A stretch of DNA of 64,000 nucleotides from assembly GCF_010983895.1 (NCBI RefSeq), contig NZ_CP048836.1, forward strand, positions 4,030,001 to 4,094,000, written 5' to 3'. Below, piece by piece: positions 28,161-62,938 of this stretch (positions within the stretch are counted from its first letter, which is position 1; every line of letters starts with the position of its first letter). The notes under the pieces are model-generated. The model was given only the letters and a program-made list of their open reading frames with translations, was not told where the DNA came from and did no database searches. The stretch is from Nitrogeniibacter mangrovi (GTDB taxonomy: Bacteria; Pseudomonadota; Gammaproteobacteria; Burkholderiales; Rhodocyclaceae). The position numbers were made by a program, and so were the translations under genes.

Positions 28161-29777
<1,617 letters not shown>

Positions 29778-36313: not shown

Positions 36314-36464
36314 TGTTCGCTCCAATCGGTTGACCTGCCCGCGCCCCCTTCGGCGCGCGGTTCCGTGGTGCAGGCTAGGCGACCGAGGTGTCGACGCGAT
36401 GACAGCGCTCTGGCGCGCACGGCGCCGGCCGTGGATGCCGCGACGGATGTTGCGGCGCACCCAA

Positions 36465-36480
36465 TGTCGCAAACCCGACA
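36465..36480 (+). promoter_or_regulatory. NifA upstream activator site for the fdx-nifZ-nifF unit
   Basis: TGTCGCAAACCCGACA, identical to the site upstream of rnfA. It lies about 45-60 bases before the -24 element. Confidence 0.9.
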
Positions 36481-36522
36481 CGACGGATCGAACCAAGCGA
36501 CTGTTTTAATGAAGAAATATTC

Positions 36523-36538
36523 GGGCACGGCGCTTGCA
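36523..36538 (+). promoter_or_regulatory. Sigma-54 promoter of the fdx-nifZ-nifF unit
   Basis: GGGCACGGCGCTTGCA matches TGGCAC-N5-TTGC apart from the first base, with correct GG/GC spacing. It ends 30 bases before the ferredoxin start. Confidence 0.9.
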
Positions 36539-36567: not shown

Positions 36568-36894
36568 ATGCCCAAACCGAAGAAACATGTACTCGTCTGC
36601 GCCCAGGGCCGCCCCGAGGGACATCCGCGCGGATCCTGTCAGGCCAAGGGCTGCGGCCCGGTGTGGCAGAAGTTTTCCGACGAATTCGCCGCCCGCAGGC
36701 TGTGGGAATCGGGCCTGCAGCTGACCAACACCGGCTGCCTGGGCCCCTGCCACCTGGGGCCGAGCGTGCTCGTGTATCCGGACGGGGTGATGTACACGGG
36801 GGTGACGAGCGCCGATGTCGAGGACATCATCGACACCCATCTGCTGTTCGACGAGCCGGTCGAGCGCCTGCGGGCGCCCGCGGACGTGTGGTAG
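36568..36894 (+). CDS. Thioredoxin-like [2Fe-2S] ferredoxin
   Basis: A 108-residue ferredoxin of the thioredoxin-fold type with C11-x12-C24 and C57-x3-C61 (NTGCLGPCHLGPSVLVYPDG). This family includes nif-linked [2Fe-2S] ferredoxins of diazotrophs. As first gene of the unit with nifZ and nifF, it probably serves nitrogenase electron transfer or maturation. The ATG at 36568 follows AGGAGAG. Confidence 0.92.
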   Translation: MPKPKKHVLVCAQGRPEGHPRGSCQAKGCGPVWQKFSDEFAARRLWESGLQLTNTGCLGPCHLGPSVLVYPDGVMYTGVTSADVEDIIDTHLLFDEPVERLRAPADVW

Positions 36895-36906
36895 GCGGAG
36901 GCACCG

Positions 36907-37173
36907 ATGCGCAGCGTTCAATACGACGTCGGTGACCTGGTGTTCGCCGCCAGCGACATTCTCAACGATGGCGGCCTGCCCGGGGTGGACGAGGCGGGGC
37001 TCATTGCCGCGGCCGGCACCCGGGGCGTGGTGGTGCAGTTCGGTCATGCCGAGCTGGACCCGAGCCGGGAGATCTACCTGGTGCGCTTCGAGACCGGCCC
37101 CGACGACACCCTGGGCCACCCGGTGGGCGTGCTGCCCGAAGAGCTCACCCAAGCGGTCCCGGGCGGGCACTGA
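36907..37173 (+). CDS. nifZ: Nitrogen fixation protein NifZ
   Basis: An 88-residue NifZ-domain protein: YDVGDLVFAASDILNDGG, AGTRGVVVQFGHAELDP, EIYLVRFE. NifZ helps form the second P-cluster of the MoFe protein. It is shorter than the ~150-residue NifZ of Azotobacter and consists of the core domain only. It lies between the ferredoxin and nifF with short gaps. Confidence 0.9.
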   Translation: MRSVQYDVGDLVFAASDILNDGGLPGVDEAGLIAAAGTRGVVVQFGHAELDPSREIYLVRFETGPDDTLGHPVGVLPEELTQAVPGGH

Positions 37174-37176
37174 GCC

Positions 37177-37737
37177 ATGACCAGGCTCGGCATCTTCTTC
37201 GGCACCGAGACCGGGCGCACCCGGCGGCTCGCCAAGCAGATCGCGCAGCGACTGGCCGACGATCACGGCGTGCCGGTCGACACGCCCGCCAACATCGGCC
37301 GCACCTCGGTGGACGACTTCCTTGCCTGCGACGCCTTCATCCTCGGCACGCCGACCCTCGGCGAAGGGGAACTGCCGGGGCTGGACACCGGGCTGGCGCA
37401 ACCGAGCTGGGCGGAGTTTCTGCCCGGGCTGCCGGCCGGCGCGCTGACGGGCAAGACGGTGGCCATTTTCGGCCTGGGCGATCAGGAGAAGTATCCGGAG
37501 CACTTCGTGGACGCCATCGGCCTGCTGTACGACGCACTCACCGCCCTGGGTGCCCGCGCGGTGGGCCGCTGGCCGACGGCCGGCTACACCTTCACCGGAT
37601 CGGTCGCGGTGGACGGCGACGACTTCCTCGGCCTGGCCATCGACCCGCATGCCCAGGCCGGCCAGACCGACGCGCGCGTCGACGCGTGGCTGGCCCGGGT
37701 GGTCCCCGAACTGGTCAACGTGAAGGAGGGGGTATGA
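37177..37737 (+). CDS. nifF: Nitrogenase-reducing flavodoxin NifF
   Basis: A 186-residue long-chain flavodoxin. FMN-phosphate loop FFGTETGRTRRLAK (about residues 7-20), first aromatic loop GTPTLGEGELPG, and FGLGDQEKYPEHFVDAIG. The extra C-terminal loop (GYTFTGSVAVDGDDFLGLAID) marks the NifF type. It donates electrons to NifH. It starts three bases after the nifZ stop. Confidence 0.95.
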   Translation: MTRLGIFFGTETGRTRRLAKQIAQRLADDHGVPVDTPANIGRTSVDDFLACDAFILGTPTLGEGELPGLDTGLAQPSWAEFLPGLPAGALTGKTVAIFGLGDQEKYPEHFVDAIGLLYDALTALGARAVGRWPTAGYTFTGSVAVDGDDFLGLAIDPHAQAGQTDARVDAWLARVVPELVNVKEGV

Positions 37738-38033
37738 ACGCGAATCCGTGGTCGCTGAAGAAGCACAACCAGCTGCGCCGCCTGCTGGTCAGCCTGAACG
37801 AACGCGCCGGCGATGTGTGCGAGGTGGTCTCGGACGACGATCCGCACACCGTGACCCTGCGCCATGCCGACCTGCGCCGGCTGCGCGCCCGCGTGTATCT
37901 GCACGCCCAGCCGCGCGGCACCTACGGCATCGCCTTCGAGTTCCCCTCGCCGGTCCCCCAGGTGCTGGCGCGCCAGGAATTCCTCAGCCTGCCGGCGGCG
38001 GTGCGCTGCCTGAGCGCGCACTTCGCCGCGTGA
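37734..38033 (+). CDS. Unknown small protein coupled to nifF
   Basis: A 99-residue basic protein that I do not recognise. It overlaps the nifF stop by ATGA and has AAGGAGG upstream, so it belongs to the nif transcript. Segments: PWSLKKHNQLRRLLVSLNERAG, HTVTLRHADLRRLRARVYL, GTYGIAFEFPSP. No cysteine cluster or membrane segment. Its stop directly abuts the convergent molbindin gene. Confidence 0.75.
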   Translation: MNANPWSLKKHNQLRRLLVSLNERAGDVCEVVSDDDPHTVTLRHADLRRLRARVYLHAQPRGTYGIAFEFPSPVPQVLARQEFLSLPAAVRCLSAHFAA

Positions 38034-57449: not shown

Positions 57450-58373
57450 GTGCGCCCTTCCAGTAACGCCCCCCTGCGATGGCCCGATGCCGACACCCTG
57501 CGCGAGCGGGCCGTCGGCGCCTATCTGGGGCTGGCCATCGGCGATGCGCTGGGCGCCACCGTCGAGTTCATGACGCCGCGCGAGATCCAGGCGCGGCACG
57601 GCGTGCACAAGGAGCTCACCGGCGGCGGCTGGCTCAGGCTCAAGCCCGGGCAGGTGACCGACGACACCACCATGTCGCTCGCCCTGGGCGCGGCCATCCT
57701 CGAGCACGACGGCCGCGTCGTCCCGGACGCCTGCGCCCGCGCCTTCGACGCCTGGATGCGCGCCAAGCCGGTGGACATCGGCAACACGGTGCGCCGCAAC
57801 CTCGTCACCTGGCGCCGCACCGGTGATCCGCAGGCCCCGGCATCGGAGCACGACGCCGGCAACGGCGCCGCCATGCGCGTGCTGCCGGTGGCGCTGGCCA
57901 CCCTGGGCCGGCCGCGCGAGGCGATCGCCGCGGCCAGCCGCGCCCAGGCCCATGTCACCCACCACAACGCCCTGTCCGACGCCGCCTGCGAATGCCTCAT
58001 CGCCCTGGTGCATGCCGGCCTGCGCGATCGACCCCAGGCGGGTCAGGCCGCAATCGCCCGCCTGCTGGCGACCCAGCCCGTGTTCACGCCGCCCGCGCGG
58101 CGGGTCGACAATCCCAGCGGCTACGTCGTCCACACCCTGCAGGCGGTGCTGCAGGCGCTCGCCGCCCATGCCGACGCCGAGTCGGTGCTCCTGGATGTGG
58201 TCAATCGCGGTGGCGACGCCGACACCACCGGCGCCATCGCGGGCATGGTCGTGGGCGCCCGTCACGGCGCCAAAGCCCTGCCACGCCGGTGGTACGAACG
58301 CCTCGACCCACAAATCCGGGAGGCGTGCTGCACCCAGGCGGTCGGATTGCTGGCACATGTGACCACCGCCTGA
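57450..58373 (+). CDS. draG: ADP-ribosyl-[dinitrogenase reductase] hydrolase DraG
   Basis: A 307-residue DraG/ADP-ribosylglycohydrolase: GAYLGLAIGDALGATVEFM, GQVTDDTTMSLAL with the dinuclear Mn site T-D-D, GNGAAMRVLPVAL, and NRGGDADTTGAIAGMVVGA with the second D-x-D-T site. It removes ADP-ribose from NifH and so reactivates nitrogenase. GTG start at 57450. The transferase gene draT is not in the window. Confidence 0.95.
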   Translation: MRPSSNAPLRWPDADTLRERAVGAYLGLAIGDALGATVEFMTPREIQARHGVHKELTGGGWLRLKPGQVTDDTTMSLALGAAILEHDGRVVPDACARAFDAWMRAKPVDIGNTVRRNLVTWRRTGDPQAPASEHDAGNGAAMRVLPVALATLGRPREAIAAASRAQAHVTHHNALSDAACECLIALVHAGLRDRPQAGQAAIARLLATQPVFTPPARRVDNPSGYVVHTLQAVLQALAAHADAESVLLDVVNRGGDADTTGAIAGMVVGARHGAKALPRRWYERLDPQIREACCTQAVGLLAHVTTA

Positions 58374-60047: not shown

Positions 60048-60533
60048 GTGTCCGTTGTCGCCAACATGTTCAACCTTCTGTTTCCCCACGGCGTCGCCCC
60101 GTATCTGGTCGGCGGCCTGCTGATCGGCCTGGGCGTGGCCGTGCTGTATGTGGTCACCGGCCGTCAGGGCGGGGCGAGCACGGTGTTCAGCTCGACCTGG
60201 TCCTGGTTCGTCGCCACGCCCTTCTTCCGCCAGGCCGCGCTGCTCGATTCACGCCGCTGGCGTCTGGTGTACGCCGCCGGCTTCGTGCTCGGCGGCGCGC
60301 TCTATCTGGCCCTCGGCCTGCCCCAGGAAGCCAGCCACCTGCCGGCCTGGAAGCTGGCCCTCGGCGGCGTGCTGATCGGCTATGGCGCCCGCCTCGGCGG
60401 CGGTTGCACCTCGGGCCATGGCATCTGCGGCATGGCCTCGCTCAACCGGGGCTCCATGCTGATCGTCGCCACCTTCATGGCAACCGCGATCGCCACCGCC
60501 TGGATCATGAAAGGACTGGGGGTGGGCGCATGA
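60048..60533 (+). CDS. YeeE/YedE (DUF395) family membrane protein
   Basis: A 161-residue membrane protein with about four helices and the family motifs GGLLIGLGVAVLYVVTGRQGGAS and RLGGGCTSGHGICGMASLNRGS. These half-size YeeE proteins act in pairs and are linked to uptake of sulfur compounds such as thiosulfate. GTG start at 60048; the next gene overlaps by ATGA. Confidence 0.88.
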   Translation: MSVVANMFNLLFPHGVAPYLVGGLLIGLGVAVLYVVTGRQGGASTVFSSTWSWFVATPFFRQAALLDSRRWRLVYAAGFVLGGALYLALGLPQEASHLPAWKLALGGVLIGYGARLGGGCTSGHGICGMASLNRGSMLIVATFMATAIATAWIMKGLGVGA

Positions 60534-60988
60534 ACACGTCCATCGATCGGCTCGTCACCCTCGTCGCCGGCACCCTGTTCGGCTTCGGCCTGTCGTGGGC
60601 GACCATGATCCGGCCCGAGGTGGTGCTCTCCTTCCTCACCTTCGACGATCTGGGCCTGCTGTTCGTGCTCGGCGCGGCCACCGGCCTGAACCTGATCGTG
60701 TTCCAGCTCGTCCCGCGCCTGCGCCGTCGGGCGCTGCTCGGTGGCGCCTTCGAACCACGCCCGTTCCAGGTGGATCGGCGCAGCCTCGCCGGCGGCGCCC
60801 TGTTCGGCGTCGGCTGGGGCATCTGCGGGGTGTGCCCGGGACCGGCGCTGGCCGGGCTGGGTGCGGGCAACCCCGACCTGCTCATCGCCCTCGGCGGCAT
60901 CTTCGCCGGTGCGCTGCTGCACGGCCTGACCGTCGGCCGACGCGAGTGCCCGGCCCCCGCGCCGGTCGCGGCCGCCACGGCCGACTGA
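60530..60988 (+). CDS. YeeE/YedE (DUF6691-type) family membrane protein, partner half
   Basis: A 152-residue membrane protein with about four helices, GTLFGFGLSWATMIRPEVVLSFLTF and GVGWGICGVCPGPALAGLGAG. The paired Cys (WGICGVCPGP) correspond to the conserved cysteines of YeeE-type transporters. Coupled to the gene upstream; together they make one full transporter. Confidence 0.88.
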   Translation: MNTSIDRLVTLVAGTLFGFGLSWATMIRPEVVLSFLTFDDLGLLFVLGAATGLNLIVFQLVPRLRRRALLGGAFEPRPFQVDRRSLAGGALFGVGWGICGVCPGPALAGLGAGNPDLLIALGGIFAGALLHGLTVGRRECPAPAPVAAATAD

Positions 60989-60994
60989 GGGACC

Positions 60995-61387
60995 TCAGGC
61001 GCTGGCGAGCGCCGCGGCCTTGAGGCGCGCCGCGAGGGCGGAATCCAGGGTCGCCAGGTGCTGGGCGAACCAGTCGGGCAACGCGTTGACGTAAGCTCGC
61101 GCCATGGTGCAGTTGCCCTGCTGCACCCGGATCGACAGGTGACTCAGATCCGCCAGCACGCGGGCGTGCTCGGCCTCGTGCTCGGCGGTGGCGGCAAAGC
61201 GGCAGGCCTGCATGAGCCGATACTCGCCCTCGAAATGCCGGCGGGTGTGGGCGCGCAACTGCTCGAACAGGGCCGGAAATTCCACCTCCGGCGCAGCGCT
61301 CAGGGCGCTCACGTAGCTTGCGAATTCACGGTGCGTAGCATCCATGTCGGCCACGCCCAGCGCGTGATGGGCGGTGTCCCACTGCAT
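60995..61387 (-). CDS. Bacteriohemerythrin
   Basis: A 130-residue four-helix hemerythrin with diiron ligand pattern H19 (DATHREF), H51-x3-E55 (HTRRHFEGEY), H70/H74 region (EHEAEHARV) and C-terminal H-x4-D (QHLATLD). Binds O2 reversibly. Its start overlaps the stop of the upstream gene by one base, so it belongs to the NifA-controlled SIR2-like unit. It may buffer or deliver O2 in fixing cells. Confidence 0.9.
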   Translation of the reverse strand: MQWDTAHHALGVADMDATHREFASYVSALSAAPEVEFPALFEQLRAHTRRHFEGEYRLMQACRFAATAEHEAEHARVLADLSHLSIRVQQGNCTMARAYVNALPDWFAQHLATLDSALAARLKAAALASA

Positions 61388-61952
61388 CAGATGGCTCCGT
61401 GGTTTTCCCGCTTGTTGGCGTTGGTCGCCACCGAGGAGAAGGCCAGTTCCGGGTACTTGAAGCGGGTGTTGCTGAGGGCGTCGAACAGGGTCACGACCTT
61501 GTCGGCCGCGCTCTGGCCCTTGAAGTCCCCCTTTTCGAGCGCGGCCAGGTCGGCCAGCTCGGTCCACACCATGCCTTGCACCAGGGGGATGAACACCACC
61601 CGGGCGCCATGACGGTGTCGATGAACGGATCGTCGATGTTCACGGTGAACAGCACCACCCGCGACTCGGCGTCCAGGGCCTCGCCGAATTTTTCCACCAC
61701 CAGGGGAAAGTCCTGCAGCGCGTCGAGGGAGCCGGACAGCAACCTGAGCTTGTCCGCTGCGGTCAGCAGCACGACCTGCTTGAGCACGCGTTCCGGCGGC
61801 TTGCGCCGGCCCTGGGCGTCGGCGATCTCGCCTTCCTTGAGGGTGAATTCGCCGCGATAGGCCGTGAGCCCGGTCGTCGAGGCCGCCTCGCAGAAATTCT
61901 CGTTGAAGAACAGCGCCTGGTACTTTTCCATCAGGGGGGTGTCGACCTGCAT
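61387..61952 (-). pseudogene. Unknown gene of the NifA-controlled SIR2-like unit, one-base frameshift near 61602
   Basis: The coding pattern runs from ATG 61952 (GGAG upstream; MQVDTPLMEKYQALFFNENF) through VNIDDPFIDTVMAP. It then continues in another frame with VVFIPLVQGMVWTELADLAAL to the stop at 61387. One base is missing in the CCCGGG run at 61598-61606. The span is 566 bases, one short of 189 codons, giving a ~188-residue protein if repaired. No known domain: the N-half has TGLTAYRGEFTLKEGE and VLKQVVLLTAADKLRLL. No other stop interrupts it. Confidence 0.72.
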
Positions 61953-61978
61953 GGTGTCTTGCTCCAATCGATAGGGAA

Positions 61979-62815
61979 TCAGGCCGGCTGGGCGGCGCCG
62001 ATGAATTCGAATACGTCTTCTTCGATGATCTCGAGGCCGACCTTCCGGCAGAACCGGCGTTCCTTGGCGGTGGGGTCGGGCAGCAGGATCCAGCCCGCGG
62101 GCTGGGCGGCGCTGTAGACGATGTCGGCCATCACCATGCGCTCGGTGTCGCGGTTGAGGCGCAGCCCCATGAGCAGGTAGCGCTTGCCCTGGCGATAGGC
62201 CTTGAGTTCCGGCGGAATGGCGAAGCCGCCCATCAGCTCGGTGATGTAGTCCACATAGTCGGCGTCGGAGGCCACGTAGGTGGCTTCGGGGCGCGGCGTG
62301 CCCATGGGCTTGAACAGCAGCGGCAGGGCCATGTCGAGCTGCTCGACCTCGCGGTAGGCCTCGCCGGTCCAGGTGTAGAGCTTGTAGCGGAAGGGCGTGC
62401 CGCCGATGCGGGCGACGCCGACGATGAGGTTGTGGGGGCGGCTGGCGGCGCTGTCCTGAAGCTGGGTGTCGCGGTTGATGTCGACCACGTACCGGGGCGC
62501 GAGCGCCTGCAGCCAGTCATGCACGGCACCGCGGGTGTATTCGGTCTCGCCGTAGGTGCGGGTGAGGAAGCGGGTCACCGCGCTGCGCCCGCGCTTGAGC
62601 TCGACGTTCATCGCCGCGCGGGGGAACTCGTACATGAGCTTGGGCGCCATCGGGCGGCCGTCGTTCATGGCGAGGATGAGGGCGTCGCTGGTGGCGGGAA
62701 TCACGGCGCCGGTCGCCACGCTGCGGACGTCGGCGAGCACGCCCGGGCCGAGATAGGGCACGATGGTGCCGTTGCTCAGGCCGGTGACGAGCAGGTCGCG
62801 CTGATCGGGGGTCAT
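61979..62815 (-). CDS. SIR2-like protein under NifA/sigma-54 control
   Basis: A 278-residue protein with features of the SIR2_2-like fold: GTIVPYLGPGV (residues 16-26, cf. the GxGxS loop), DINRDTQLQ (112-120, cf. TTNYD), KPMGTPRPEATYVASDADY (169-187, cf. the KLHG and DY motifs) and YLLMGLRLNRDTERMV (cf. the GYSLxD helix). Several NAD-site residues differ from canonical sirtuins, so catalysis is uncertain. First gene of a three-gene unit with a sigma-54 promoter and NifA site; GGAG precedes the ATG at 62815. Role in nitrogen fixation unknown. Confidence 0.82.
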   Translation of the reverse strand: MTPDQRDLLVTGLSNGTIVPYLGPGVLADVRSVATGAVIPATSDALILAMNDGRPMAPKLMYEFPRAAMNVELKRGRSAVTRFLTRTYGETEYTRGAVHDWLQALAPRYVVDINRDTQLQDSAASRPHNLIVGVARIGGTPFRYKLYTWTGEAYREVEQLDMALPLLFKPMGTPRPEATYVASDADYVDYITELMGGFAIPPELKAYRQGKRYLLMGLRLNRDTERMVMADIVYSAAQPAGWILLPDPTAKERRFCRKVGLEIIEEDVFEFIGAAQPA

Positions 62816-62856
62816 GGTCTTGCTCCATCTTCCAATGCGGTCATGCCGTATCGGGT

Positions 62857-62870
62857 GCAAGAAGCGGGCC
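62857..62870 (-). promoter_or_regulatory. Sigma-54 promoter of the SIR2-like unit
   Basis: On the minus strand GGCCCGCTTCTTGC has GG and GC ten bases apart and a full TTGC -12 box; the -24 box reads GGCCC rather than GGCAC. It ends about 41 bases before the gene start. Confidence 0.78.
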
Positions 62871-62922
62871 CGTCAGGAAACCCCGTCGATTCAATGGCTT
62901 GTCATGGTGCATCGCACCGTGT

Positions 62923-62938
62923 TGTGGACTTTGCGACA
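62923..62938 (-). promoter_or_regulatory. NifA upstream activator site of the SIR2-like unit
   Basis: TGTGGACTTTGCGACA fits TGT-N10-ACA, with one arm identical to the other NifA sites in the window (GCGACA). It lies about 55-70 bases upstream of the -24 element. Confidence 0.8.

Follow-up and report, generated by a model that had tools for sequence, protein, structure and literature searches.

A probable pnfA operon with NifA- and sigma-54-type promoter elements in Nitrogeniibacter mangrovi encodes a predicted SIR2-fold protein whose sirtuin active site appears degenerate

The locus lies within the window, i.e., the whole 64,000-nt stretch of DNA analysed here, which is part of the 4.24-Mb single-contig genome of N. 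mangrovi. It consists of three genes on the minus strand, with a promoter-like region upstream and nitrogen fixation genes in the surroundings. The features are as follows (positions beyond the end of the window are given on the same scale).

62938..62923, minus strand: NifA UAS TGTCGCAAAGTCCACA (TGT-N10-ACA), beginning 123 nt before the ATG of the SIR2-like gene
62871..62856, minus strand: sigma-54 -24/-12 element GGGCCCGCTTCTTGCA (GG-N10-GC), score 11.7, beginning 56 nt before the same ATG
62815..61979, minus strand: SIR2-like gene, probable pnfA ortholog, 278 aa, with a predicted SIR2 fold and an apparently degenerate active site
61952..61387, minus strand: middle gene (MID), unknown family, reading frame disrupted near 61600
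61387..60995, minus strand: single-domain bacteriohemerythrin, 130 aa, with the seven presumed diiron ligands present
60048-60988: Sulf_transp/DUF6691 (YeeE-type) gene pair identified by Pfam, flanking the operon
from 63585: DUF6969 gene, flanking the operon on the other side
28161-29777: nifA, by family search
57450-58373: draG, by family search
68.4-69.1 kb on the window scale: draT, just outside the window
69.4 kb on the window scale: nifH, just outside the window

Only 26 nt separate the SIR2-like gene from the middle gene, and the ATG of the hemerythrin gene overlaps the TGA of the middle gene by one base, an arrangement that fits a single operon. The first-pass annotation had placed SIR2-like, unknown and hemerythrin genes on the minus strand at this locus, as indeed they are. 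The middle gene is not intact in the window, however: codons 1 to 117 share a frame that differs from that of the last 70, with the break near 61600. This could be either a sequencing error or a real disruption or recent loss. Family searches also identified nifB, a TIGR01616 nitrogenase-associated gene and a flavorubredoxin-like gene in the window, while nifE, nifN, nifU, nifS and iscA were named from their translations only. In the N. mangrovi genome draT and draG lie on opposite sides of the SIR2-like operon. As read from translations, a second transporter pair and rhodanese-like and sulfide:quinone reductase-like genes occupy window-scale positions 64354-68196 (L109, 1355-5197); sulfur-type genes hence surround the operon and part it from draT, unlike in those relatives that have draT directly upstream. 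Judged by the gene, the closest relatives have titles mostly of Rhodocyclales type, the best match to the SIR2-like protein by identity (78%) being from Denitromonas.

The UAS and the sigma-54 element before the SIR2-like gene, both of which the first-pass annotation had pointed out, are spaced 67 nt apart. Taken singly, neither motif is informative, with 10 UAS-type sites in the window versus 4.45 expected and 13 sigma-54-like sites scoring at least 11 versus 10.4 expected (the scoring matrix uses consensus frequencies), both about what chance would give. The oriented combination of the two, 25 to 160 nt apart, was in contrast found seven times, versus a mean of 0.08 (maximum, 1) in 60 random first-order Markov sequences. 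Since one sigma-54 site is common to two pairs, the seven pairs correspond to six promoters. One precedes the SIR2-like operon and three precede genes read as iscA/nifU, nifE and nifB (the last named by family search, the others from translations only), while the remaining two, at 26.4 and 36.5 kb, precede genes with no family-search identity. The region at 36389-36538 contains two NifA-type sites and a sigma-54 element with a score of 15.2; the small plus-strand genes downstream, at 36568-38033, have translations that suggest ferredoxin-like and flavodoxin-like proteins among their products.

The same promoter footprint recurs upstream of the SIR2-like gene in other genomes. Sufficient upstream DNA was available for 104 related loci, from which 2080 control windows were also drawn. 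A UAS was present within 350 nt of the gene in 89 (8.6% of controls), a sigma-54 element scoring at least 11 in 38 (4.2% of controls), and both together in 37 (1.7% of controls). In most of the near-clade loci listed a sigma-54-like element precedes the start codon by about 45 to 60 nt. As for the UAS, most Rhodocyclales-type loci have it near -116, and those Methylobacter-type loci that have one carry it between about -134 and -166. No UAS was found upstream of the gene in six near-clade loci, and neither a UAS nor a sigma-54 score of 11 in any of the nine distant-clade loci L020 to L028.

Published work agrees with NifA control of the SIR2-like gene. According to the accessible parts of the reports, the Pseudomonas stutzeri A1501 gene PST1325 was assayed for expression in nifA and rpoN mutants and described as depending on NifA and sigma-54 (PMC2820453), and the SIR2 family protein Rcc03262 was never detected in a nifA1-A2 mutant of Rhodobacter capsulatus (PMC6925177). 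Together with the window statistics and the footprints, these reports argue for the NifA/sigma-54 control proposed by the first-pass annotation, which in N. mangrovi would be exerted through the two sites described here.

PST1325 is pnfA, and the SIR2-like gene of the window is most likely its ortholog, as judged by position, size, listed homologs and annotation rather than by an alignment to PST1325. The idea of an uncharted accessory function for this locus therefore finds no support, as pnfA was described in 2010 (PMC2820453). As far as the accessible text of that report goes, PnfA resembles the window protein in its size (31.7 kDa), its nif linkage and its NifA/sigma-54 promoter with a UAS, and homologs were reported in Azoarcus BH72, D. 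aromatica, A. vinelandii and H. halophila. PST_1325 adjoins nifH and is annotated as a SIR2 family protein (PMC11332353, in the part accessible), and it was induced with other nif genes in engineered Escherichia coli (PMC6053447, likewise). The two loci differ in that pnfA of P. stutzeri is divergent from nifHDK, whereas the window gene has draT and a number of further genes between it and nifH and, unlike its P. stutzeri counterpart, is followed by the unknown-family gene and the hemerythrin gene.

The phenotype of the P. stutzeri mutant, as given in the accessible text of the 2010 report (PMC2820453), bears directly on function. The mutant retained 23% of nitrogenase activity and transcribed nifH at an unchanged level, behaved like the wild type under argon, lost nitrate-supported fixation, and could be complemented. 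Without the gene, microaerobic cells did not reach full nitrogenase activity, and the phenotype was oxygen dependent.

Other nif-linked SIR2 proteins have been described, again as far as the accessible portions of the sources tell: a SIR2-like gene in the nif operons of Rhodovulum (PMC9412634), ZMO1821 in the nif cluster of Zymomonas mobilis (PMC8600466, PMC8594446), and the sirtuin-like msi351 of Mesorhizobium loti within a NifA-RpoN operon (PMC3538637). Rcc03262, msi351 and ZMO1821 are likened here to the window protein by these published descriptions, not by sequence. The msi351 mutant was fully effective, and NGR234 and Sinorhizobium meliloti 1021 have no msi351 (PMC3538637, in the part accessible), which speaks against a general requirement for the gene.

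To place the gene among diazotrophs, we surveyed two genome samples, one from the class, which we take to be Gammaproteobacteria in GTDB, and one from the phylum. In the class sample (369 genomes) the gene was found in 28 genomes and nifH over the cut-off in 31, with both in 26 (Fisher p=1e-32). The two remaining gene-bearing genomes, counted as negatives in this test, have partial nifH matches, in G079 with NifB and in G268 as a nifH fragment only, no NifB match being found there at E<=1e-20. The SIR2-like gene was on the same contig as a nifH match in 22 of the 28 genomes, in all cases within 44 kb, and was absent from five of the 31 nifH genomes (G057, G068, G177, G194 and G322). In the phylum sample (398 genomes) 17 had the gene, 38 had nifH over the cut-off and 14 had both; the other three gene-bearing genomes (G402, G425 and G603) had NifB over the cut-off, and 24 of the 38 nifH genomes had no SIR2-like gene. 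G603, G402 and G551 have a further, incomplete copy of the nif SIR2 gene (L142, L143 and L144). Plasmid records with a relative numbered 72, all below 60% identity and 55 of them from Rhizobium; the plasmid-borne rhizobial members listed have 25 to 29% identity to the window protein. In R. etli p42d the SIR2 gene is the last of nifB-fdxN-nifZ-nifT-SIR2, and its product aligns with the family at 28% identity, with Trp for Asn and Tyr for His at the two positions discussed below.

These surveys bear out the co-occurrence with nif genes that the first-pass annotation had expected. The gene trio, which it had suggested searching for beside nif genes, is complete only in a subset of loci, the SIR2-like gene being the widespread part. 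Downstream sequence of at least 1.3 kb was available for 91 near-clade loci, several of them short enough for neighbours to have escaped notice; 39 of the 91 have the middle gene together with the hemerythrin gene, 16 the hemerythrin gene alone, four the middle gene alone and 32 neither. The Denitromonas locus with the best SIR2-like match (L033) has the hemerythrin gene, with no copy of the middle gene detected.

Several lines of evidence indicate that the lead protein has a Rossmann-type SIR2 fold, as the first-pass annotation had supposed. Pfam SIR2_2 matched all but one of the 66 members of the family (65); taken by itself, the window protein scored just under the cut-off (22 versus 24.5 bits). 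The AlphaFold model, built from 66 sequences, had a pLDDT of 91.2 and a pTM of 0.91, and its best solved matches in Foldseek were DSR2, KomC and ThsA (E 3e-10 to 3e-8; TM to query about 0.6). In hhalign against eight generic SIR2_2 proteins the family reached 96.4% probability, the profile alignment pairing LGPGVL with AGAGLS, DINRD with TTNYD and KPMG with KMHG (lead family and generic SIR2_2, respectively). A phmmer search with the window protein and a profile search of solved-structure sequences returned nothing relevant.

The fold bears on two other readings of the gene. The discoverers of PnfA, whose text in the part accessible (PMC2820453) has no SIR2-fold assignment, considered an electron-transfer or UspA/ETF-type protein, on about 31% identity of residues 176-240 to UspA/ETF-alpha-like regions and in line with the nitrate-dependent phenotype. 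We regard this as quite unlikely, because the family-wide SIR2_2 matches were accompanied by no UspA/ETF match at E<=0.1 (weak FGase matches in five members and YdaS_toxin in three) and the 50 best fold matches shown were all DSR2, KomC, ThsA and AVAST5 entries. That the closest solved structures are defence SIR2 proteins would in turn suit an anti-phage NADase lying beside nif genes by chance. DSR2, KomC and ThsA, phage-defence SIR2 NADases, do share the fold, but the DSR2 and ThsA chains are much longer than the single-domain, nif-linked window protein. A defence role is extremely improbable given that PADLOC returned weak matches only (Cas12a in 2/66, best E 0.012; DpdD in 1/66, E 0.04), that the protein has no catalytic pair, and that the gene has a NifA-type promoter and co-occurs with nif genes. 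The N. mangrovi genome encodes a separate generic SIR2_2 protein (L120, G000:C1:3256672-3257112) with GAGxS, TTNxD and HG in a long ORF, perhaps involved in defence.

Catalysis by sirtuin/SIR2 proteins requires an Asn and a His. In the window protein GPGVL, DINRD and KPMG replace the motifs GAGxS, TTNxD and HG. We aligned 128 rows (133 profile hits less five weak or partial ones), among which there are repeats, G013 appearing as L028, L122 and L134 and the genes of G402 and G603 twice each. At position 171, His in generic SIR2 proteins, these rows have Met in 102, Leu in 12, His in six, Tyr in five, Trp in two and Thr in one; at position 114 Asn is present in 104 and Trp in 24; and at the Ser position of GAGxS Leu is present in 122 and Ser in one. 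No row has the catalytic Asn and His together. The six that retain His are all distant and have Asn replaced by Trp; their His falling in column 171 supports the alignment, and they may have residual or different chemistry. All 128 rows share G23, E72, R77, H99, P170, G172 and D184, pointing to a protein under constraint although its sirtuin motifs are gone. For comparison we took SIR2_2 proteins from 56 genomes of the class, which gave 10 matches, one of them (L122) dropped as the nif gene of G013. HG was present in all nine and TTNxD and GA/SGxS in eight; the ninth, L121, keeps HG but has SPNYD and GAGAP at the other two motifs. His171 of DSR2, which we take to be catalytic, is retained there, in contrast to the window protein; the titles of DSR2 H171A structures with NAD+ fit the need for this residue.

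The sirtuin active site of the lead protein hence looks broken, and deacylase or NADase activity is disfavoured, since no row combines Asn and His whereas eight of nine generic SIR2 proteins do. The NAD-linked catalysis that the first-pass annotation had read into the fold does not fit with the loss of the pair in all 128 rows. This also makes it improbable that PnfA is a working NAD+-dependent deacylase regulating nitrogenase or NifA, an idea raised for ZMO1821. The SIR2 fold and family name would suit such an enzyme, as would the upregulation of ZMO1821 under N2 fixation and the acetylation of NifA and nitrogenase reported in the accessible text of PMC8600466, but 122 rows have Met, Leu, Tyr, Trp or Thr for His and the six others Trp for Asn. 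While the gene and its NifA control are already known, the degenerate active site of the pnfA-type protein is the apparently unreported part, no statement of it having been found in the open-licence literature.

The middle gene represents a family with no convincing relative in Pfam or among solved structures. Intact homologs of 183 to 190 aa were found in 46 of 80 genome-contig loci. In Pfam the family gave nothing of weight (DUF7684 in 2/30 members, best E 0.0084), and the model, with a pLDDT of 90.5, had a best solved match of E 0.008 and a TM of at most 0.31 among the 50 shown.

The hemerythrin exceeds the TIGR02481 cut-off (65.1 versus 51.75 bits) and falls below that of NF033749 (64.7 versus 84 bits). 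It has H19, H51, E55, H70, H74, H110 and D115, presumably the diiron ligands, which are kept in 57 or 58 of 58 rows, making O2 binding plausible. It is like single-domain bacteriohemerythrins in its TIGR02481 membership and ligands, and differs in its NifA-type promoter and in scoring below NF033749.

Gene order raises the question of a link with reversible ADP-ribosylation. Across related loci the SIR2-like gene is near nifH and often divergent from it; draT-SIR2-...-draG is a common order in Rhodocyclales-type loci, and in N. mangrovi both genes lie to the sides of the operon. PnfA might on this basis be a partner of DraT/DraG, e.g., by holding NAD+ or reading the ADP-ribosylated Fe protein. 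DraT was however found in only 13 of the 28 gene-bearing genomes, and yet in four of the five nifH genomes that do not have the gene, implying that the frequent draT-SIR2-draG order reflects no functional requirement. In several Methylococcaceae/Methylobacter loci nifH and SIR2 diverge with no draT between them, and Z. mobilis was reported to have neither draT nor draG (PMC8594446, in the part accessible). Even with draT immediately before it, the SIR2 gene has a UAS of its own (18/18 loci) and often a sigma-54 element scoring at least 11 (10/18). We consider a DraT/DraG partnership unlikely, and an obligate DraT partnership is at odds with the 13/28 count. For hemerythrin in combination with draT and draG, nothing was found in the open-licence literature. 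In L077 the draT tblastn matches come in three pieces and in L089 those of draG in four, which suggests duplicated or broken copies.

The reading that we favour, with a probability of about 0.6, is that the locus holds a pnfA operon belonging to the NifA/sigma-54 regulon and that its lead product is a binding accessory preserving nitrogenase in respiring cells, with no sirtuin catalysis. What doubt there is about the whole picture lies mostly in the mechanism, not in the identity. Three elements lead to a binding protein that preserves nitrogenase, i.e., a respiration-dependent, post-transcriptional phenotype, a lost active site and an accompanying hemerythrin. PnfA would be a SIR2-fold protein dedicated to nitrogenase in which the scaffold has been kept and the sirtuin catalytic pair lost, presumably binding NAD(H), ADP-ribose, a related nucleotide or a protein partner (e.g., the Fe protein) with no deacylation or NAD+ hydrolysis. 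It would probably act after nif transcription and would keep nitrogenase active in the respiring cell, whether microaerobic or anaerobic with nitrate. The hemerythrin of many Rhodocyclales-type operons probably buffers or senses O2 to the same purpose, and the middle protein may be a partner encoded in the same operon.

A wider version of this reading can be put forward tentatively, as a possibility well short of even odds. PnfA would then exemplify a class of inactive sirtuins serving as nucleotide-sensing or -binding subunits for nitrogenase, in which the near clade has lost the His and the distant clade, including the rhizobial members, the Asn, both with a remodelled pocket. Together with the middle partner and the hemerythrin, such a protein might couple nitrogenase activity, at a post-transcriptional level, to O2 or to the redox state of respiration.

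For the biology of nitrogen fixation, the finding concerns a protein that is present in 26 of the 31 nifH genomes of the class sample and that in one organism is needed for about three quarters of nitrogenase activity. A SIR2 fold that appears to have no sirtuin active site makes deacetylation, the obvious hypothesis, less likely and directs attention to binding instead. By the same token, transfer of nif clusters to new hosts without pnfA may entail a loss of activity under respiring conditions.
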